Positions 1 to 9,525 of a stretch of 64,000 bases of DNA are shown here, piece after piece (the first letter of the stretch is position 1; each line of letters begins with the position of its first letter). The stretch spans positions 1 through 64,000 of the forward strand of contig JAHDWN010000026.1 of NCBI GenBank assembly GCA_023382675.1, given 5' to 3'. The position numbers were made by a program, and so were the translations under genes. This stretch comes from Anaerolineae bacterium (GTDB lineage Bacteria > Chloroflexota > Anaerolineae > Aggregatilineales > Phototrophicaceae). The notes beneath the pieces were generated by a model. That model was given only the letters and a program-made list of their open reading frames with translations, ran no database searches and had not been told where the DNA came from.

Positions 1-186
1 CTCTAGCCCATCCAGACCGGGCAGCATGATGTCGAGTATGACCAGATCAGGACGGTATCGACGAAAGTGCGCTAAGCCCTCCAACCCATCTTTAGCGACA
101 TGGACTGTGCTGCCGTCAGCCTTCAAGTATGCTTCAACCAGATTCAGAATAGGCGCTTCGTCATCGATTACAAGTATGGTCGCCAT
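1..186 (-). CDS. Response regulator receiver domain (partial, C-terminus off the window)
   Basis: The 62 visible codons begin MATILVIDDE, and the frame stays open to the left edge. This is the start of a CheY-like receiver domain: the acidic pair VIDDE lies after the first strand, and DLVILDIMLPG carries the phospho-acceptor aspartate with the usual MLPG turn. Receiver domains accept phosphate from a histidine kinase. The output domain is outside the window, so the regulator class cannot be told. It is divergent from the sugar-uptake genes that follow. Confidence 0.85.
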   Translation of the reverse strand, partial: MATILVIDDEAPILNLVEAYLKADGSTVHVAKDGLEGLAHFRRYRPDLVILDIMLPGLDGLE

Positions 187-416
187 GTGTGCGTCCTCTC
201 GTGCCGCATATGCCTCCATTTTAGGGCAGTTGTTGACAAGTTTGATCGGCTTGCACATTCTTTCATTACTTGCACAAAATCAAAAATTGAGTCACATTAT
301 AAGCGCGCCGAGTACGGCAAGATGTATTTCGAACGGACTTTAGGAGGTGATACCAGGCATCACAAGAGTCTAGTAGGTTCGAGCCAATTGAATTACAGCA
401 CGATATTAAGGATGGA
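187..416. other. Divergent intergenic region with an orphan full-length Shine-Dalgarno
   Basis: The region is AT-richer than its surroundings and should hold the promoters of the response regulator (leftward) and the binding-protein gene (rightward). Two TTGCAC hexamers lie 19 bp apart at 251 and 270, but no convincing -35/-10 pair could be fixed. TAGGAGGTGAT at 341-351 is a near-complete match to the anti-Shine-Dalgarno of 16S rRNA, yet no start codon lies at a usable distance. The real gene start is some 70 nt further on. Confidence 0.5.
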
Positions 417-2093
417 ATGCTTATGCGTACACGATCTGTATTCTTCGTTCTACTTGTCCTCAGCATCCTCCTAGCGCTAGGTGTGAGCCAGGTAGCCGCG
501 CAAGATACCTTCATGGGCAAGACTGCTGAAGAGCTTTTCCCCGGCGCTGCCAACGATCAAGAACGAGCGTCGGCGATGGCTGCGCTGCTGGCAGCCAATC
601 TGCCGGACGCCACCGGTCGCTTCGCCGGCCAAACCCTGACTGTCTCTGTGCAGCAGGCAGGCGCTCGCGGCGGTATCTCTGGCCCCTATTACTTCTGGCG
701 TGATGTCTTCGAGACCGCAACCGGGGCGACGCTGGAAATCGTCGAAATCCCGCAAGCACAGTATTTCACCACCACTTCGACGGACTTCCTGACCGGGCAG
801 AACAGCTACGATGTCATGAACATCGGTGCGTGGTTCCTGGCCGATTACGTCTCCAACGCCTGGATCCAGCCTGTCACCAGCTATGTGGGTCAAGATGGCT
901 ACCCGGCATGGAATACGGAAGACGTGTTCCCGTCGCTGGCAGCCCTCATGCAGTGGCAGGGTGACTGGTACGGCGCGCTGAACGACGGCGATGCCCAGAT
1001 GCTGTATTTCCGCAAAGACATTCTGGAAGATCCGGAATGGCAGGCGGCTTTCGAAGCTGAAGTCGGCTCCCCGATGCCATACCCGATTGAGACCTGGCAG
1101 GATCTGCTGGCGATCACAACGTTCTTCAATGGCAAGGATTGGAACGGCGACGGCGACCCGGATGACGGCATCAGCCTGCATCTGCGCAGCGGTGGACAGG
1201 GCTTCTTCCACTTCATGTCGCTCTCAGCACCTTTCGCCATTACCCCGGCAGAAGGCGACGACATCAAGCAAGTCACCAAGTACGACAATGTCTATTGGTT
1301 CGATCCTGACGACATGACCCCGCTGATCAACCAGCCTGGTCACGTTGCAGCCCTCGAATACCTCAAGACGTTGGCGGCCACCGGCTCCGAAGCGCAGTTC
1401 GGTTGGGAATTGGCAGAGGCCTGGGATAACTTCCTGAACGGCAACGCCGTCGCGACGTTCTCCTGGGGCGACGTCGGCTCGCTGGCACAGGACCCGACAC
1501 GTTCGACCATCACCGGCAACCTTGGCGGCGCGCGCATTCCGTGCTCCGAACGCTGGTACGATCGTGAGACCGGCGCGTTTGTTGAAGACAGCGAGAACCC
1601 GAACTGCGTCGGTAACACGACCGGCGGCTCCTGGTTCCCGGTGATGTCGGCCTTCACTGATGTGCCGGAGCTGGCCTACTACTTCATGGCGATGCACGCG
1701 AACAAGCCGATCAACTTCTGGAACGTAGTTTACGGCTGGACGGGCGTTGATCCGGGCGCTACTTACACTCTGTTCCCGCCTACTGGCACGGCTACGGTCG
1801 AAGACTACGTGAATGCAGGCTACAACGCGGGTGACGCCGAAGAATTCATCACGGGTTACGGCGAAAACTTCTTCAGCCATCCGATCTACGAGACGTACCT
1901 CCGTATTCCTGGCACTGTTCAGTACTGGGACATTCTGGATGTACGCCTGGCGCAGGCGATGACCGATCAGTCTACCCCGCAGGAGGCACTGGATCTGGTG
2001 GCTCAGGAATGGGATGCCGTTACCAATGACCTCGGTCGCGATGCGCAGATTGCGATTTACCAGGCTTCGCTCGGCTACACGCCCGGCGGCTAG
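417..2093 (+). CDS. Extracellular solute-binding protein of a carbohydrate ABC transporter
   Basis: This 558-residue protein has a Sec signal peptide (basic MRTRS, a hydrophobic stretch to about residue 25, then VAAQ as a cleavage site). The body fits family 1 extracellular solute-binding proteins, which capture sugars or oligosaccharides outside the membrane and hand them to a MalF/MalG-type channel. Aromatic-rich stretches such as YYFWRD and GGSWFPV fit a sugar-binding cleft. The two permease genes downstream support the role. The actual sugar cannot be read from the sequence. An in-frame ATG at 423 is better spaced from AAGGATGG than the ATG at 417, so the true start may be two codons later. 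A hairpin follows the gene. Confidence 0.88.
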   Translation: MLMRTRSVFFVLLVLSILLALGVSQVAAQDTFMGKTAEELFPGAANDQERASAMAALLAANLPDATGRFAGQTLTVSVQQAGARGGISGPYYFWRDVFETATGATLEIVEIPQAQYFTTTSTDFLTGQNSYDVMNIGAWFLADYVSNAWIQPVTSYVGQDGYPAWNTEDVFPSLAALMQWQGDWYGALNDGDAQMLYFRKDILEDPEWQAAFEAEVGSPMPYPIETWQDLLAITTFFNGKDWNGDGDPDDGISLHLRSGGQGFFHFMSLSAPFAITPAEGDDIKQVTKYDNVYWFDPDDMTPLINQPGHVAALEYLKTLAATGSEAQFGWELAEAWDNFLNGNAVATFSWGDVGSLAQDPTRSTITGNLGGARIPCSERWYDRETGAFVEDSENPNCVGNTTGGSWFPVMSAFTDVPELAYYFMAMHANKPINFWNVVYGWTGVDPGATYTLFPPTGTATVEDYVNAGYNAGDAEEFITGYGENFFSHPIYETYLRIPGTVQYWDILDVRLAQAMTDQSTPQEALDLVAQEWDAVTNDLGRDAQIAIYQASLGYTPGG

Positions 2094-2132
2094 TCTCAAC
2101 GCAGTCTCATCGCGTTCGTATGTGACACCAGG

Positions 2133-2160
2133 GGGAGAGGACCTTGTTCCTCTCCCTTTG
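2133..2160 (+). terminator. Hairpin after the binding-protein gene
   Basis: A 9-bp perfect stem (GGGAGAGGA with TCCTCTCCC, 2133-2141 and 2148-2156) with a 6-nt loop is followed by TTTG. It lies between the binding-protein gene and the first permease gene. A leaky terminator or 3' mRNA-stabilising hairpin here would give more binding protein than permease, a common arrangement in ABC importers. Confidence 0.65.
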
Positions 2161-2250
2161 TCGAACTCGTTTCAGAGCAGCGGCCTAAATTAGCGTTACA
2201 TAGAGTACAGGTTGAGGCATTCATAGAGTCGCCCCAGCTTCATTAGGGAT

Positions 2251-3357
2251 ATGAATATGCCTGATATTGAAACCGGAAAACTATTGGCCGGGTTAATCCC
2301 TGGCTTGATACCCGCAGCCGTGGCAGCCTTTCGGGGCCGCTACATACTCGCGGTTGTGGCGCTGGTCGTCTGTACCCTCGCCGGTCTGGCGGGAGAGTAC
2401 ATCTTCAGTATCCCCATGGCGATCAACTTCCTGGTCACGGCACTTGTGTTACGCGGACGGCGTGGCAAGCAGGAAGAAGTATCGGCGGTCTACAAACGCA
2501 GCAATGCGCGCTTCTACTTCTTGCTGCCGGGGGTGTTCTGGATCCTTACCTTCACGCTCTTTCCGCTCATTTACTCGCTTTATTTGAGTTTCACTAACGC
2601 ACGGCTTCAGAATATCACGCGCGGTTGGAGCCTCATTGGGCTGGAGAACTATTCCAGTATTGGCAGCGACCTGCGCGTGTCCGAGACGGTTGTCACCTCG
2701 GTGTTTCTGACGCTGGGGAGTCTGGCGCTGACGCTGATTCTGGGCACGTTCATCGCCTGGGTTTTCAATCACGATATCCCCGGCCTGCGGATTTTCCGCT
2801 CGATCCTGACGATGCCCCTGTTTGCCGCACCGATTGCGCTCGGCTTCATGGGGTTGATCCTCTTTAACGAGAATAGTGGCTCGATTAACTACATGATCCG
2901 TGGTTTGGGAGGCCAGGGGGTCAACTGGTTTACCGATCCCTGGTCAGCCCGCGCAGCCGTGCTGCTGATCGATTCCTGGCAGTGGACGCCGTTCGTCTTC
3001 ATCATCATTCTGGCAGCCATGCAATCCATCCCGGACGAACTGTATGAAGCGGCGCGTCTCGATACGAATTCGGGCTGGTCGCTCTTCCGCAGCATCACCT
3101 TCCCGCTGATCGCACCGGCGTTAGGGACGGTCGCGCTGCTGCGTTTGGTCGAAACCTTCAAGATCCTCGACATTCCGTTGTCGATGCTTGGCGGCGGGCC
3201 GGGGACCGCTACCCAGACCTATTCGTATTACATCTACCAGACCGGCTTGCGCAATTTTGACATGGGGTATGCTTCGGCGCTGGCCTACATTCTGGTGATC
3301 ATCGCCATCATCATTACAACGATTTACTTCCAGCGTATGCGCGCGCGCTTCGAGTAG
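2251..3357 (+). CDS. MalF-type sugar ABC transporter permease
   Basis: This 368-residue membrane protein is the first channel subunit of the importer. The first 75 residues form about two extra hydrophobic segments ending in a basic loop (RGRRGKQEE), before the core that begins near FYFLLPGVFWILTFTLFPL. The EAA loop that docks on the ATPase is seen as DELYEAARLDTNSGW (roughly residues 265-280). The C-terminal ALAYILVIIAI segment is the last membrane helix. The MalG-type partner starts 21 nt after it. The ATPase is not encoded nearby, so a shared MsmK/UgpC-like ATPase elsewhere is likely. Confidence 0.9.
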   Translation: MNMPDIETGKLLAGLIPGLIPAAVAAFRGRYILAVVALVVCTLAGLAGEYIFSIPMAINFLVTALVLRGRRGKQEEVSAVYKRSNARFYFLLPGVFWILTFTLFPLIYSLYLSFTNARLQNITRGWSLIGLENYSSIGSDLRVSETVVTSVFLTLGSLALTLILGTFIAWVFNHDIPGLRIFRSILTMPLFAAPIALGFMGLILFNENSGSINYMIRGLGGQGVNWFTDPWSARAAVLLIDSWQWTPFVFIIILAAMQSIPDELYEAARLDTNSGWSLFRSITFPLIAPALGTVALLRLVETFKILDIPLSMLGGGPGTATQTYSYYIYQTGLRNFDMGYASALAYILVIIAIIITTIYFQRMRARFE

Positions 3358-3378
3358 GGCGAGCGGAGTACCCCTATT

Positions 3379-4266
3379 ATGGCAACGCAATCCGCGATAC
3401 GGCCTGGAAATGCACAAACCAAGAACACAGTGACGCCCGGCTGGACACGTGTGCTCATCTGGCTAACGATTATATTCGTCACCTTCTGGGTGCTCTACCC
3501 GTTCGCCTGGGCGATTATCACATCCTTCAAAACGCAGCGTCAGGCGCTTGAACCGACCTTCGTGCCCTTCCTTCAATTCAATCCAAGCATCGAGAACTGG
3601 TCTGCCGAGTTGGGACTGGCGGGCCGCGAAACGGCGACGGCCATCGGCAATAGTATTGCCATCTCCCTCGGAGCGACGTTCGTCGCCACCATTCTGGGCA
3701 CATCGACGGGTTATGCACTGGCGCGGTTTCGCTATGGTATCGGCAACGTGAATGTCGTGTCGTGGGTGCTGTCGCAGCGCTTCCTGCCGCCGGTGGCGAC
3801 GATGATCCCCTTCTTCTTGCTCATCCAGCGATTACAAGGCATCGACACTATCTGGGGCATGATCCTCGTCAACACGACCTTTGTTCTGCCCTTTGCCATT
3901 CTGATCATGCGCGACTACTTCGCTGATTTCCCGGAGGAAATCGAAGAGGCGGCGCTGGTCGATGGCGCAAGTCCGGTGCAGATTCTCTTGCGTGTGGCGC
4001 TGCCCCTGGCAGGCCCAGCGCTCACGGCAGCGGCGGTGATCTGCTTTGCGTTCGCCTGGAACGAATATCTGTTTGCGAGCGTCATGGCCGCCAACAAAGC
4101 CAAGCCGTATACATTCCTCGTCGCCAGCACCAGCACTTCGCGCGGTGTTCACTTTGGTTATCTGGCGACACGTATGTTGATCGCGATTACGCTGCCGGTC
4201 GTGCTCTCGCTGTTCGTGCAGCGTTATATCGTGCGCGGGCTGACGCTCGGCGCGGTCAAAGGCTGA
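3379..4266 (+). CDS. MalG-type sugar ABC transporter permease, copy 1
   Basis: This 295-residue protein is the second channel subunit. It shows the usual MalG plan: one N-terminal helix (VLIWLTIIFVTFWVLYPF), the SFKT motif, then five helices. The EAA loop reads EEIEEAALVDGASP at about residues 191-204. It ends in the typical RYIVRGLTLGAVKG. It follows the MalF-type gene by 21 nt and forms one operon with it. A second, nearly identical copy follows after a 169-nt spacer that holds a malF relic. Confidence 0.92.
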   Translation: MATQSAIRPGNAQTKNTVTPGWTRVLIWLTIIFVTFWVLYPFAWAIITSFKTQRQALEPTFVPFLQFNPSIENWSAELGLAGRETATAIGNSIAISLGATFVATILGTSTGYALARFRYGIGNVNVVSWVLSQRFLPPVATMIPFFLLIQRLQGIDTIWGMILVNTTFVLPFAILIMRDYFADFPEEIEEAALVDGASPVQILLRVALPLAGPALTAAAVICFAFAWNEYLFASVMAANKAKPYTFLVASTSTSRGVHFGYLATRMLIAITLPVVLSLFVQRYIVRGLTLGAVKG

Positions 4267-4295
4267 CGTATGCGCAGCGATCATGACTGGGGCAC

Positions 4296-4415
4296 GGCTT
4301 GCCTGAATGAACTACACGATGAGATAGACCTTGGCGCTGGCCTGCATCCTGATGATTATCGCCGTCATCATGACGGCGGCACACCTCTAACATGTGAGTC
4401 CGCGCTTCGAACAGG
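4296..4415 (+). pseudogene. Relic of the 3' end of a second malF-type gene
   Basis: The spacer between the two malG copies aligns with the last part of the intact malF-type gene and its downstream leader. Read from 4334, it gives ALACILMIIAVIMTAAHL, a stop, then HVSPRFEQ. The intact gene ends ALAYILVIIAIIITT...RARFE. The upstream part (4299-4333) is also recognisable as DNA but is out of frame by a few bases. It has an internal stop and no start, so it cannot encode a permease. It implies that malF and malG were duplicated together and that the second malF was then mostly deleted. Confidence 0.8.
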
Positions 4416-4435
4416 GCGGAAGGAGTAACCGCATC

Positions 4436-5326
4436 ATGGCAGCAACACAAACCGCGGTACGACCGCGCGACACGCAGAGCAAGAACACAATGTCGCCAGG
4501 TTGGTCACGTGTGCTTATCTGGGTGGCAATTATCTTCATCACCTTCTGGGTGCTTTATCCGTTCGTCTGGGCGGTGATTACGTCATTCAAGACACAGCGC
4601 GAGGCGCTCGACCCGACCTTCGTGCCCTTCCTTCAATTCAATCCAAGCATCGAAAACTGGTCTGCCGAACTGGGGCTAGGTGGCCGCGAAACGTCGCTGG
4701 CAATCGGCAACAGCATCGCTATCGCCGTAGGCTCGACATTGCTGGCGACGATCCTGGGCACACTGACAGGCTATGCGTTGGCGCGTTTCCGTTATGGCAT
4801 CGGCAACGTAAATGTCGTGTCCTGGGTGCTGTCGCAGCGCTTCCTGCCGCCGGTGGCGACGATGATCCCCTTCTTCCTGCTCATCCAGCGGTTGCAGGCC
4901 ATCGATACCGTTGGCGGCATGATCCTCGTCAACACCACCTTTACGCTGCCCTTTGCCATCCTGATCATGCGCGACTTCTTTGCCGACTTCCCGGAGGAGA
5001 TCGAGGAGGCGGCGTTAGTCGATGGCGCAAGTCCGGTGCAGATTCTCTTGCGCGTGGCGCTGCCCCTGGCAGGCCCGGCGATCACGGCGGCGGCGATCAT
5101 CTGCTTTGCCTTCGCCTGGAACGAATACCTGTTCGCCAGCGTGATGGCACCCAACAAGGCCAAGCCCTATACATTCCTCGTCGCCAGCACCAGCACTGTG
5201 CGCGGTGTGCATTTTGGCTATCTGGCGACACGCATGTTGATCGCGATCACGCTGCCGGTTGTGCTCTCGCTGTTCGTGCAGCGGTACATCGTGCGTGGTC
5301 TGACCCTGGGTGCAGTCAAAGGCTGA
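4436..5326 (+). CDS. MalG-type sugar ABC transporter permease, copy 2
   Basis: This 296-residue protein is a close paralogue of copy 1, with by-eye identity in the high eighties percent and long runs of identical DNA. The EAA loop EEIEEAALVDGASP and the C-terminus are unchanged. Differences cluster in the N-terminal tail and the first two helices. The start at 4436 is chosen because MAATQTAVRP aligns with the start of copy 1 and GGAAGGAG lies about 10 nt upstream. A longer frame from 4394 runs through the malF relic. Keeping both copies may reflect dosage or simply recent duplication. Confidence 0.88.
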   Translation: MAATQTAVRPRDTQSKNTMSPGWSRVLIWVAIIFITFWVLYPFVWAVITSFKTQREALDPTFVPFLQFNPSIENWSAELGLGGRETSLAIGNSIAIAVGSTLLATILGTLTGYALARFRYGIGNVNVVSWVLSQRFLPPVATMIPFFLLIQRLQAIDTVGGMILVNTTFTLPFAILIMRDFFADFPEEIEEAALVDGASPVQILLRVALPLAGPAITAAAIICFAFAWNEYLFASVMAPNKAKPYTFLVASTSTVRGVHFGYLATRMLIAITLPVVLSLFVQRYIVRGLTLGAVKG

Positions 5327-5361
5327 TGATCGACCGATGAGGCTCTTTGCCAATCGCATGG

Positions 5362-5391
5362 GGGCATGGCATCGTCCATGCCCTTATCGTT
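5362..5391 (+). terminator. Probable terminator of the sugar ABC operon
   Basis: An 8-bp perfect stem (GGGCATGG with CCATGCCC, 5362-5369 and 5376-5383) with a 6-nt loop is followed by TTATCGTTT. It lies 35 nt after the second malG stop. Confidence 0.6.
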
Positions 5392-5475
5392 TCAGCATTG
5401 AGATGCCCCTACTGTCAATGTTTCAGCATTGTGATACCATTTACTAGTGCTATCTGTCTCGGATCAGGCCGATTC

Positions 5476-6159
5476 ATGCAAGACCAGTTGATCAACATCA
5501 AGGGCGTGGGCGATGGATTGCGCATTACGCTCGATGAAGCCGAGGAATGGAGCAACATCACCGCGCTGCTCGCATCGCGCATCGACCAGCAGAGTGCCTT
5601 CTTTAGTGGCGCACGGGTCACGCTGGATGTGGGCGCGCGGCCTGTGCGCAAAGATGAGATGATGTCGATCAAAGCACTGCTCGACCGGCGTGGTTTGACG
5701 CTTGCGGTCGTTCTGAGCGACAGCCAGACGACGCTCGACTCCGCGGACGCGCTCGATCTGCGCGCTAATGTGAGTGCCGTGCCTGCGCCAGAACCGGTTG
5801 ATGGCCTGGCGCCATTCAACCCGGAAGAAGAAGGTACTGCCGGGGTCATGATCCGGCGGACGCTGCGCTCCGGGCGAACTGTACGCAGCGCCGGGCACGT
5901 GGTCGTCTTTGGCGATGTCAATCCCGGCGCGGAAATCCAGGCAGTCGGCGATGTGATCATCTGGGGGCGGCTGCGCGGCATGGTTCACGCTGGTGCGCAC
6001 GGCGATACCAACGCCGTTGTCTGTGCGCTGGATATGACCCCGACACAGTTGCGCATTGCCGGGTATCTGACCACGTCGCCGCAAGATAAACGCCAGAAAC
6101 CCAGGCCGGAAATTGCCTTTATCCGTGATGGGCATATTGTCGTAGAAGCGTGGGAATGA
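5476..6159 (+). CDS. minC: Septum site-determining protein MinC
   Basis: This 227-residue protein is the FtsZ inhibitor of the Min system. The C-terminal beta-helix domain is clear: IRRTLRSGRTVRS, then GDVNPGAEI, then GDVIIWGRLRGMVHAGAHGD and PTQLRIAGYL, which are MinC signatures for dimerisation and MinD binding. The N-terminal half (about residues 1-110) is weakly conserved, as is usual. The start MQDQLINIK is preferred over an upstream ATG at 5347, whose extra residues are unlike MinC. minD and minE follow. Confidence 0.9.
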   Translation: MQDQLINIKGVGDGLRITLDEAEEWSNITALLASRIDQQSAFFSGARVTLDVGARPVRKDEMMSIKALLDRRGLTLAVVLSDSQTTLDSADALDLRANVSAVPAPEPVDGLAPFNPEEEGTAGVMIRRTLRSGRTVRSAGHVVVFGDVNPGAEIQAVGDVIIWGRLRGMVHAGAHGDTNAVVCALDMTPTQLRIAGYLTTSPQDKRQKPRPEIAFIRDGHIVVEAWE

Positions 6160-6265
6160 CAAGCCTGAGGTTAGCGGCTTCATCTGTGGGTGGGCCGACC
6201 GGCGTTTTTGATGACTGCACGATACAGCAACAGCCCGGGATGTTATTCTGCACAAAGGGGAGACC

Positions 6266-7069
6266 ATGACGGGGAAAGTGGTGACGATTACGTCGGGTAA
6301 AGGCGGAGTGGGCAAAACGACCACAACCGCAAACCTGGGCGTGGCACTGGCACGATTAGGGCAGAAAGTCGTCTTGATCGACGCCGACATCGGTCTGCGT
6401 AATCTCGATATCGTGCTCGGCCTGGAAAACCGGATCGTTTATGATCTGGTCGATGTCGTCGAGGGTAGAGCCAAACTGCGCACAGCGTTGATCAAACACA
6501 AGAGCTTCCCCGATCTGTACCTCCTGCCGGCGGCGCAGACGCGCGACAAAACCGCCGTCAGCCCACAAGACATGATCCAGCTTTGCAACCAACTGCGCCC
6601 GGAATTCGATTTCATCTTGATCGACTGCCCGGCAGGGATCGAACGCGGATTTCGCAATGCGGTCGCCCCTGCCGATGAAGTGCTGATTGTGACCAACCCT
6701 GAAGTGTCTGCCGTCCGCGACGCCGACCGCATCATCGGTCTGCTGGAAGCGGAGCGCAAAGGCCCCGGCAGACTCGTCCTCAACCGCATTAAACCCGACA
6801 TGGTGCGCAAGGGCGAGATGCTGGCCCCGGACGACGTGACCGATATTCTCGGTATTAAAATCCTGGGCATCGTTCCGGAAGATGAGAATGTTGTCCCCTC
6901 GTCCAACAGCGGCATTCCGATCACACTCAACGATAATTCCCGCGCCGGGAAGGCGTTTCACAACATCGCGCGCCGGCTAATGGGCGAGCGCGTGCCGTTC
7001 ATGTCCTTGGAAGAAAGCGGCGGCTTTTTCAAGCGCCTGGGCCGAATTTTCTCTGGCGGCGGGGGTTAG
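6266..7069 (+). CDS. minD: Septum site-determining ATPase MinD
   Basis: This 267-residue ParA/MinD-type ATPase has the deviant Walker A motif GKGGVGKTTTT at residues 10-20, the switch region DADIGLRNLD, and DFILIDCPAG as Walker B. It ends in the amphipathic membrane-targeting helix GGFFKRLGRIF. ATP-bound MinD dimerises on the membrane and recruits MinC and MinE. AGGGGAGACC lies just before the ATG. It lies between minC and minE. Confidence 0.96.
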   Translation: MTGKVVTITSGKGGVGKTTTTANLGVALARLGQKVVLIDADIGLRNLDIVLGLENRIVYDLVDVVEGRAKLRTALIKHKSFPDLYLLPAAQTRDKTAVSPQDMIQLCNQLRPEFDFILIDCPAGIERGFRNAVAPADEVLIVTNPEVSAVRDADRIIGLLEAERKGPGRLVLNRIKPDMVRKGEMLAPDDVTDILGIKILGIVPEDENVVPSSNSGIPITLNDNSRAGKAFHNIARRLMGERVPFMSLEESGGFFKRLGRIFSGGGG

Positions 7070-7078
7070 GGGCGGACG

Positions 7079-7483
7079 ATGAGCAGTTTCTGGGAGCGCC
7101 TGCTTGGGCGCAGCAATCTGCGGGGTACAGGCCAACAGGCAAAAGATCGGCTGCAATTCGTCCTGCTGCACGACCGGCTCAACATGTCGCCGGAACGCAT
7201 GGAGGCGATGAAGCAGGAGATCCTGGCAGTCATCTCCAAGTACGTATCGGTCGATGAGCAGAAGGTCGATATTGCGCTCCAACGCCGCGATAGCGCCAGC
7301 CTCCTGATCGCTGAAGTGCCGTTCCTCACCACCATCCACAAGGACGATGACGAAGTAGACGAAAACCGCGAACAACAACAAGCCGAGGATGAGGTAGAAG
7401 CTCCGCCGCCAACCAAAAAGTCGCGCCGCAAAAAAGCCTCACCTGCCGAAGACGCCAACGAGATGCCTGAGGATGACGCCTGA
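7079..7483 (+). CDS. minE: Cell division topological specificity factor MinE
   Basis: The first 85 residues are a standard MinE: an N-terminal membrane-binding helix (SFWERLLGR), the anti-MinCD helix region around RLQFVLLHDR, and the dimerisation domain ending LLIAEVPF. MinE stimulates MinD ATPase and drives pole-to-pole oscillation. At 134 residues it is longer than the usual 85-90. The extra 45-residue tail is highly charged and looks disordered, first acidic (KDDDEVDENRE), then basic (KKSRRKK), then acidic. It starts 9 nt after minD. Confidence 0.92.
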   Translation: MSSFWERLLGRSNLRGTGQQAKDRLQFVLLHDRLNMSPERMEAMKQEILAVISKYVSVDEQKVDIALQRRDSASLLIAEVPFLTTIHKDDDEVDENREQQQAEDEVEAPPPTKKSRRKKASPAEDANEMPEDDA

Positions 7484-7607
7484 TAGGATTGGCGCGAACC
7501 TGACGCGTTTTTCGTGTGGAATTCACATCGTACAGCCGCCTCTGTTCGTTCCGCTTTCGCAGCGCTATAATGCCACACGGTTGATGTTGTAGACTTAACG
7601 GAACGGA

Positions 7608-8723
7608 ATGCGCAGTCACCCCACCAGCCTCTGGCGACAGTTCGATTTCCTGCTCTTTGCCGTCACCATCATCCTCACCATCTTCGGCGTGCTCATGATC
7701 CGCAGCGCCACGCTCGACGCCATCGATCCTGACCTGATCGCGCGCGTACCCAATCAGATTCGCTACGGCCTGATCAGTCTGGTGGTCATGTTCGCGCTGG
7801 CGGCGCTCGATTACCGTCTGCTCGGCGGAATCCACGACTGGCTCTATGTGATCATGGTCGGCCTGCTGATCGCGGTGCTGCTCTTCGGCACAACCGGCGA
7901 CGGCGGTATCACCCAGGGCTGGCTCAACCTCGGCATCCCGATCCAGCCTGCTGAGATCGCCAAAGTGCTGATCATCGTCACACTGGGGCGCTTCCTGGCG
8001 GATAACTTCGAACGCATCGACCGCTGGGGCACGATCTTCCGCTCGATTGTCCATATCGGCGTCCCCGCCGCGCTGATTGTCGCCCAGCCCGACCTGGGCA
8101 TGACGATTGTCTTAGGCGTCATGTGGTTCGTGATGGTCTGGGGTGCAGGGCTGCCGATCAAGCGCATTTTGCAGGCGGTCGCTATCGTCCTGGTCGTTCT
8201 GCCGCTGGCAGCGCCGGTCGTCTGGTCACAGATGGAACAATACCAGCGCGATCGTCTGCTCTCGTTCATCTTCGAAGACAGCGACCCGGATGCCGCCTAC
8301 AACATCCGCCAGGCGCGCATCAGCATCGGCTCTGGCGGTCTGCTCGGCGAGGGCTATGCGCAGGGATCGCAGAACACAGGGCGCTTCCTGCGTGTGCGCC
8401 ACACCGATTTCATCTTCGCCGTCATCGCCGAAGAATTCGGCTTCGTCGGCTGTGTCGTCGTCATGATCTTGCTCGGCGTCGTCATTCTGCGCATCTTACG
8501 CGGTGCTCGGCTGGCGGTCGATCCGCTCGGCAGTCTGATCTGTTATGGCGTGGCGGCCTTTATCTTCTTCCAGACGTTCGTCTCCATCGGCATGAATTTG
8601 GGGCTGATGCCGGTGACGGGGCTGACGCTGCCGTTCATCAGCTCCGGCGGTACGTCGCTGCTCTCGACACTGGCGGGCGTCGGCCTCGCGCAGAGCGTCA
8701 TCATGCGCCGGGCGCGGGTGTAG
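7608..8723 (+). CDS. RodA/FtsW/SpoVE-family peptidoglycan polymerase
   Basis: This 371-residue protein has about ten membrane helices. SEDS-family marks are visible: QPDLGMTIVLG around residue 165, the loop SGGLLGEGYAQGSQ near 245, HTDFIFAVIAEEFGF near 265, and the C-terminal LPFISSGGTSLLS. SEDS proteins polymerise lipid II into glycan strands together with a class B PBP. The short length and compact N-terminus suggest RodA (elongation) rather than FtsW, but I cannot separate the two with certainty. Its place after minCDE fits a shape and division locus. Confidence 0.9.
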   Translation: MRSHPTSLWRQFDFLLFAVTIILTIFGVLMIRSATLDAIDPDLIARVPNQIRYGLISLVVMFALAALDYRLLGGIHDWLYVIMVGLLIAVLLFGTTGDGGITQGWLNLGIPIQPAEIAKVLIIVTLGRFLADNFERIDRWGTIFRSIVHIGVPAALIVAQPDLGMTIVLGVMWFVMVWGAGLPIKRILQAVAIVLVVLPLAAPVVWSQMEQYQRDRLLSFIFEDSDPDAAYNIRQARISIGSGGLLGEGYAQGSQNTGRFLRVRHTDFIFAVIAEEFGFVGCVVVMILLGVVILRILRGARLAVDPLGSLICYGVAAFIFFQTFVSIGMNLGLMPVTGLTLPFISSGGTSLLSTLAGVGLAQSVIMRRARV

Positions 8724-8736
8724 CGGAGATCGTGTT

Positions 8737-9039
8737 ATGGTCAATCTGAAAGACACCGTGCGACAGGTCACATCGGAATACGCGGGTGAAGCGCTGAATG
8801 GATACACCTACCTGACGCACAGCGACGATGGCTCTGTCTTTACCGTCGTTGGCGTGGGAACGGTGCAGGGTAAACATGTGGCAAACATCAGCCTCTTTGT
8901 TCGTATCGTAGGCGATAAAGTGATTGTCGAACGCGATCAGAATGACAAACCACTAGTCGATGCGCTGATCCAGGCAGGCGTGCCACGGGAGCAAATCATC
9001 CTTGCCTATGCGGGCGAATCCGTGCCCGAAATGGCGTAA
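8737..9039 (+). CDS. XisI-family protein
   Basis: This 100-residue protein matches the XisI family by recall: an N-terminal helix, a beta-sheet core (HVANISLFVRIVGDKVIVERDQ), then the typical end LVDALIQAGVPREQIILAYAGE. XisI and its partner XisH were first described as excision factors of the cyanobacterial fdxN element. They are widespread in Chloroflexota and cyanobacteria as stand-alone pairs of unclear role. No XisH (a PD-(D/E)XK-type nuclease) lies next to it. It starts 13 nt after the SEDS gene and is probably co-transcribed with it. Confidence 0.78.
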   Translation: MVNLKDTVRQVTSEYAGEALNGYTYLTHSDDGSVFTVVGVGTVQGKHVANISLFVRIVGDKVIVERDQNDKPLVDALIQAGVPREQIILAYAGESVPEMA

Positions 9040-9098
9040 CCGTCCGCAGAGGCAAAATCATCATATCTCGTTGGCCAAGCTTAGCAAGGGAGGTCCGC

Positions 9099-9407
9099 AT
9101 GATCGCCCGACTGTGGCACGGTGTGACCAAAGCGGAAGACGCAGATGTTTACTTCGAGTATCTCAAGCGCACTGGACTGAGCGACTACCGATCCGTCAAA
9201 GGCAACATGGGCGTCCAGGTTCTACGCAGGATCGAGGGCGACAAGGCGCACTTCTTGCTCATCACCCATTGGGACTCGCTAGATGCCATCAAGCGCTTTG
9301 CCGGTGACGACTACGCCCAAGCTCGCTACTATCCCGAAGACACCCGCTACCTGCTCGAACTCGAAGAGCACGTCGAGCACTACGAAATCCTCGACATAGA
9401 CGAATGA
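9099..9407 (+). CDS. Small protein of the antibiotic biosynthesis monooxygenase (ABM) fold
   Basis: This 102-residue protein begins MIARLWHGVTKAEDAD and contains a central LLITHWDSLDAIKRFAGDD. That pattern belongs to the dimeric alpha/beta ABM fold used by heme-degrading and quinone-forming monooxygenases and by many proteins of unknown role. HWDSLDAIKRF is the family hallmark. A strong ribosome site, AAGGGAGG, lies 8 nt before the ATG. The substrate is unknown. It follows the XisI gene on the same strand. Confidence 0.75.
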   Translation: MIARLWHGVTKAEDADVYFEYLKRTGLSDYRSVKGNMGVQVLRRIEGDKAHFLLITHWDSLDAIKRFAGDDYAQARYYPEDTRYLLELEEHVEHYEILDIDE

Positions 9408-9465
9408 CGTGACACATCTGAAGGCAGGAGCAAATTAGCGCATTAGCTTGCGTGCGGATGGACTG

Positions 9466-9497
9466 AACAGCCGAAAGCTGACCGCCGAAAGCCCTTC
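9466..9497. repeat. Degenerate heptanucleotide tandem repeat
   Basis: The segment reads in steps of seven: CAGCCGA, AAGCTGA, CCGCCGA, AAGCCCT. The complementary form of the same motif occurs at 13449. It lies between two converging genes and has no coding potential. Confidence 0.55.
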
Positions 9498-9525
9498 CCC
9501 ATCCGGCCAATACCCAAAAACCCCT

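Follow-up and report, generated by a model that had tools for sequence, protein, structure and literature searches.

Why a transporter gene cluster with a single malF-type permease gene should carry two malG-type permease genes, and what the sequence between them once was, is the question raised by the left end of the DNA analysed here (the window: 64,000 nucleotides, positions 1 to 64,000 of the forward strand of contig JAHDWN010000026.1 in the Anaerolineae bacterium assembly GCA_023382675.1). The window opens with a sugar-type ABC importer cluster in which SBP, malF, malG1, a 169-base spacer and malG2 are followed by minC, minD and minE. All features described lie on the forward strand. The gene for the substrate-binding protein, SBP (SBP_bac_1; open reading frame 417..2093, PF01547, E 7.3e-10) comes first, followed by an intact malF-type gene of 368 aa (2251..3357; PF00528, E 4.2e-15), malG1 of 295 aa (3379..4266; PF00528, E 1.9e-15) and malG2 of 296 aa (4436..5326; PF00528, E 2.4e-14). 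The right-hand neighbour minC (5476..6159) was assigned by PF03775 (E 2.8e-33) and synteny. No ABC ATPase was found among the seven proteins scanned with Pfam at the locus, and a search of 1-9500 for regulatory RNA gave no Rfam match at gathering scores. A pattern scan placed a terminator-like stem-loop 3' of malG2 (5368..5382) and none in the spacer 4267-4435; since it returned 3 such sites against 3.7 expected from shuffles, it is no evidence alone. By eye, SJ143 has a similar stem-loop 3' of its malG.

Here malF and malG serve as family-level names only, because NCBIfam equivalog scores were far under the cut-offs for true MalF and MalG (malF 82.3 against 392; malG1 70.1 and malG2 70.6 against 261). 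All three proteins pass the PF00528 gathering cut-off of 26.4 bits (malF 56.4, malG1 57.5, malG2 53.9). The best NCBIfam relatives of the window malF are GlcT, UgpA and MalF, and those of both malG proteins are GlcU, MalG and UgpE; the Pfam domain and the order SBP-permease-permease are common to importers of the MalF/MalG, UgpA/UgpE and GlcT/GlcU types and to the window cluster. The scores of the window proteins against the curated families are far under the cut-offs (with GlcT, for instance, 92 against 360), and the substrate of the importer is therefore not assigned. The window malF is the sole close copy found in the genome, the second match by E-value being 32% identical and the other malF matches listed at most 40% identical. 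The locus holds two open malG genes and one intact malF, as had been described from the sequence beforehand. ABC importer permeases are numerous in the genome: the malG1 protein finds 64 matches there at E <=0.001. In another part of this genome (contig C26, 90716-91735), a malF-type permease match contains one TAG and one TAA and is perhaps a second decaying permease.

Alignment of malF and its spacer (2251-3378) with 4267-4437 at the DNA level, as proposed in the preliminary description, yielded a single ungapped block. It pairs 4319-4430 with 3262-3373, the malF 3' end and spacer, with 80 of 112 bases identical. The local score was 48. Shuffling the spacer 1000 times with dinucleotides preserved gave scores that averaged 10.9 and never exceeded 18, and a chance likeness to malF is thus rejected. 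When the bases from 4394 on were left out, the score was 32 and the shuffle maximum 22. The stretch separating the two malG genes is thereby confirmed as a degraded malF 3' end, for which 4319-4435 is the best placement: 4319..4414 is a decayed copy of malF codons 338-368, the last 31, together with the old stop codon, ungapped against 3262-3357 with 68/96 identical, and 4415..4435 is a copy of the malF-malG spacer, standing opposite 3358-3378 in the same register. In the malF frame, 4319-4414 reads MR, a stop, TLALACILMIIAVIMTAAHL, a second stop and HVSPRFEQ; the intact malF counterpart reads MGYASALAYILVIIAIIITTIYFQRMRARFE and then its stop. The peptide quoted earlier for the spacer, TLALACILMIIAVIMTAAHL followed by a stop and HVSPRFEQ, is thus present and matches the malF end. 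Under harsher scoring the match begins at 4330 (opposite 3272) and has a one-base gap after its first three bases, which leaves about 11 bases of doubt over the 5' edge. The start at 4296 that had been given for the remnant is consequently some 20-30 bases early, as homology is detectable only from 4319-4330. Frameshifts had also been noted before the peptide; the remnant keeps one frame from about 4333 to the old stop, and upstream of it frameshifts cannot be demonstrated because the homology there is marginal or absent.

The remnant has in-frame stops at 4325-4327, within the uncertain 5' edge, and at 4388-4390, and the natural malF stop codon is a sense codon in it. With SJ143 as the third sequence, 19 changes were assigned to the remnant, which fall 11/4/4 at codon positions 1/2/3, whereas the intact malF tail differs from SJ143 at 3/1/12 (positions 1-2 against 3, Fisher P 0.002). 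The remnant is decayed, unconstrained DNA and not a hidden gene, and the malF scrap itself most likely has no present function.

The spacer copy at the 3' end of the remnant likely carries the ribosome-binding site of malG2. The candidate site lies at 4418-4426, within the copied spacer, and its best anti-SD pairing is -8.9 kcal/mol, as compared with -6.1 kcal/mol for malG1; malG2 would then be translated from a copied site. Identity to the malF side is 16/25 over 4411-4435 and 53/75 over 4319-4393, so the stretch with the ribosome-binding site is not better conserved. The malG2 start lies 169 bases past the malG1 stop, and the malG1 start 21 bases past the malF stop. ATG 4436 aligns with the malG start of SJ143. 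Taken as its longest open frame, malG2 would start at GTG 4394, inside the malF scrap, and a gene caller could therefore add a false N-terminal extension of 14 residues to malG2. A chimeric malG2 that really starts at this GTG with 14 residues of malF scrap is unlikely, since the anti-SD pairing there is -5.0 against -8.9 kcal/mol for ATG 4436, and the SJ143 malG start resembles the ATG form.

A tree of 16 sequences joined malG1 and malG2 as sisters (support 100/99), with SJ143 next (98/96). Pairing malG2 or malG1 with the SJ143 malG was rejected (AU P 0.0022 and 0.0017), also after two tracts identical between the copies had been dropped (P 0.0037 and 0.0099), and the sisterhood is therefore independent of these tracts. 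Polarised sites gave 25 shared derived states for malG1 with malG2, 6 for malG2 with SJ143 and 7 for malG1 with SJ143. Since the two copies are sisters with SJ143 outside, the duplication postdates the split from SJ143. The copies are 85% identical at the DNA level, with dN 0.062 and dS 0.601; dS to SJ143 is 0.82 and 0.94 as against 0.60 between the copies, all rough values at such divergence. By these comparisons the malG duplication is younger than the SJ143 split, yet old. The longest run of agreeing sites between malG1 and malG2 comprised 12 sites, a length reached in 9 of 10000 permutations, and the number of such runs was not unusual (P 0.14); the patchy identity of the copies may reflect gene conversion.

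Both malG copies are intact and under constraint, with dN/dS of about 0.1 between them. Of the alignment columns that do not vary among the relatives and are filled in at least 11 of 14, malG1 differs at one (residue 81) and malG2 at none. The malG1 branch is longer than that of malG2 (0.13 against 0.062), and malG1 has evolved faster, with 21 copy-specific amino-acid changes against 6 (P 0.006). At the DNA level the relative-rate count was 75 to 43 in a three-row alignment with gapped columns counted, and 69 to 43 in a codon alignment without gaps. The amino-acid differences between the copies fall mostly (25 of 34) within the first 109 residues, in the N-terminal half.

The relatives were surveyed at 48 related loci in named genomes. 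Neither a tandem malG nor the order malF-malG-malF-malG was found at any of them; the sequence at 42 loci extends 1100 bases or more past malG, enough to have revealed another copy, and at the other 6 it is shorter. The look in relatives for an unreduced malF-malG-malF-malG, called for in the preliminary description, thus came out empty over this sample, with the 6 shorter loci covered less far. SJ143, the nearest relative in the tree, has SBP-malF-malG-minC-minD-minE with one malF and one malG. In a search of the family, with scoring mostly limited to the top 24 candidates of each genome, 15 of 98 genomes (its own included) had a match at E <=1e-110, and two matches occurred only in the window genome. 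At genus level, 7 of 15 genomes (its own included) had a match at E <=1e-90, and one other genome, G002, had two, which lie on different contigs and show 69% and 55% identity. The origin of the two malG genes by tandem duplication, which had been suggested from the sequence, is upheld by the sister grouping (100/99) and the single-copy state of the relatives.

Several further features of the related loci were observed. One locus, L079, carries an additional SBP-malF-malG set of its own at a distance. An SBP match is absent at seven loci (L041, L070, L075, L078, L080, L083 and L085), some of which are explained by a contig end, and a malF match at one (L078). In Chloroflexi isolate COS4_bin_41 (L084, 4998-5981), malG matches occur in three separate pieces only, pointing to a disrupted gene or to faults in the assembly. 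For the first 60-80 malF residues (window 2251-2480), SJ143 (L038) has a match that starts at residue 3; in the other relatives malF matches begin at residues 61-84, with L041 cut by a contig end.

We consider a single partial tandem duplication, with its left break inside the malF tail, to be the probable origin of this arrangement (probability roughly 0.7). The duplicated stretch would have run from inside the malF 3' end, at about codon 338, across malG to just beyond the malG stop, giving SBP-malF-malG1-[malF tail]-malG2. The copied malF tail, which would have had no start of its own, would then have degenerated free of constraint, and the spacer duplicated along with it would still bear the likely ribosome-binding site of malG2. 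The likeness to malF falls off at 4319-4330, near codon 338, and the unit duplicated would never have held a whole malF. The homology, the collinearity, the decay, the sisterhood of the malG copies and the single-copy state in the relatives examined are observed. This one-step history is favoured over a longer one because of parsimony and because there is no unreduced relative among those examined. The preliminary description had instead a whole malF-malG block duplicated in tandem and the second malF then mostly deleted, with its 3' end left. Such a two-step history yields the same end state, but it calls for a further deletion, of roughly 1 kb, starting near the malG1 stop, and the unreduced state occurs in none of the 48 related loci. 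Neither an intermediate nor a form preceding the decay turned up. What is recognisable of the second malF is only about its 31 last codons, and SJ143 has one malF and one malG. The earlier history is thus probably one step too elaborate; we regard it as the lesser of the two possibilities, at about one chance in four.

The 52-base filler between the malG1 stop and the remnant (4267..4318), which should hold the duplication junction, bears on both of these histories. Eleven alignment comparisons of its origin gave P values from 0.055 to 0.99, none of them significant; the targets were the 3' flanks of malG2 and of SJ143 malG, malF 3100-3275, malF 2251-3275, SJ143 malF, the SBP-malF spacer of the window, the SBP-malF stretch 417-3275, the SBP-malF spacer of SJ143, the first 300 malF bases of SJ143 and of the window, and window 5400-64000 (40 shuffles only). 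In 17 ungapped registers against malF, the best was only 17/52 identical. Related sequence is detected at this length: three pieces of the remnant as long as the filler were detected (P <=0.004), and the 3' flanks of malG2 and SJ143 malG match each other (P 0.005). By eye, the 3' flanks of eleven other relatives have no common sequence. If the duplication was plainly partial, the filler should be copied from the malG 3' flank. It fails to match the malG2 3' flank (P 0.45) and gives only a hint of likeness to the SJ143 malG 3' flank (P 0.086), although the flank control was detected, which speaks mildly against the plain one-step form. Its weak likeness to the malF 5' part (first 300 bases of the window malF, P 0.055; malF 2251-3275, P 0.24) is a hint that speaks mildly for the two-step form; against this form stands the lack of a match to the SBP-malF spacer, whether from the window (P 0.68) or from SJ143 (P 0.99). 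Because eleven comparisons were made, the hints at P 0.086 and P 0.055 are not meaningful. Two further origins have to be set beside these histories. One of the malG genes, with a malF end, might have arrived by recombination from another lineage beside the resident copy, a reading with which the longer malG1 branch and the patchy identity with its 12-site run are consistent. Gene conversion between malG1 and malG2, or uneven constraint, would account for the patchiness just as well, however, and in the 16-row tree the two genes are each other's nearest relatives, fully supported, so that a donor nearer to the window genome than SJ143 would be needed; we hold this origin to be very improbable. 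Still further down we place a mere chance likeness of the spacer to malF, at odds with the shuffle scores above, or an assembly artefact. The window genome is a draft of 110 contigs, but the malG copies are only 85% identical and a mis-join would not create decayed sequence between them.

The literature offers partial parallels to the single partial tandem duplication that we prefer. Incomplete gene duplication giving a truncated gene copy has been reviewed (PMC3449122). In the part of that review available to us, the breakpoint of partial duplications lies inside a gene and the shorter copy has no homology beyond it, which is the pattern seen in the window; its cases concern exon-intron genes and new functions of the partial copies, whereas the window has a decayed bacterial remnant of about 31 codons, and here the whole gene copied alongside, malG, is the part retained. 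In the mal2 operon of Thermotoga maritima, malF2 is described as a truncated and frameshifted pseudogene in the portion of PMC2246101 at hand. That operon and the window cluster are alike in being SBP-malF-malG sugar-transporter operons without an ATPase gene and with a broken malF paralogue. They differ in that T. maritima, as far as this text goes, has a separate second operon and one malG per operon, and the window a single cluster in which malG stands in tandem and of a second malF no more than the tail is present. For malF2, the authors in the same portion prefer horizontal acquisition to duplication. The label "MalG2" in the part of PMC12096829 that was available denotes maltose. In the titles and abstract openings of the literature searched, a partial coverage, no description of a tandem malG with a malF remnant was found.

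The malF remnant and the tandem malG duplication are real, as the preliminary description had it in essence, and ordinary in kind: a clear case of bacterial tandem duplication in which a scrap of the neighbouring gene is still legible, and one that leaves the general view unchanged. We infer that MalG1 and MalG2 would share, or compete for, one MalF in alternative MalF-MalG pairs. It is possible, though we think it unlikely, that the two have parted in role, with two importers made from one cluster by a MalF that pairs with either, and that the malF-tail stretch has been kept for the start site that sets malG2 output. To this reading belong the faster evolution of malG1 and the crowding of the differences in the N-terminal half. 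What the locus contributes beyond its history is that both full malG copies are under constraint although they appear to share one partner subunit, which raises for ABC importers the question of whether a single MalF is able to work with two MalG subunits.
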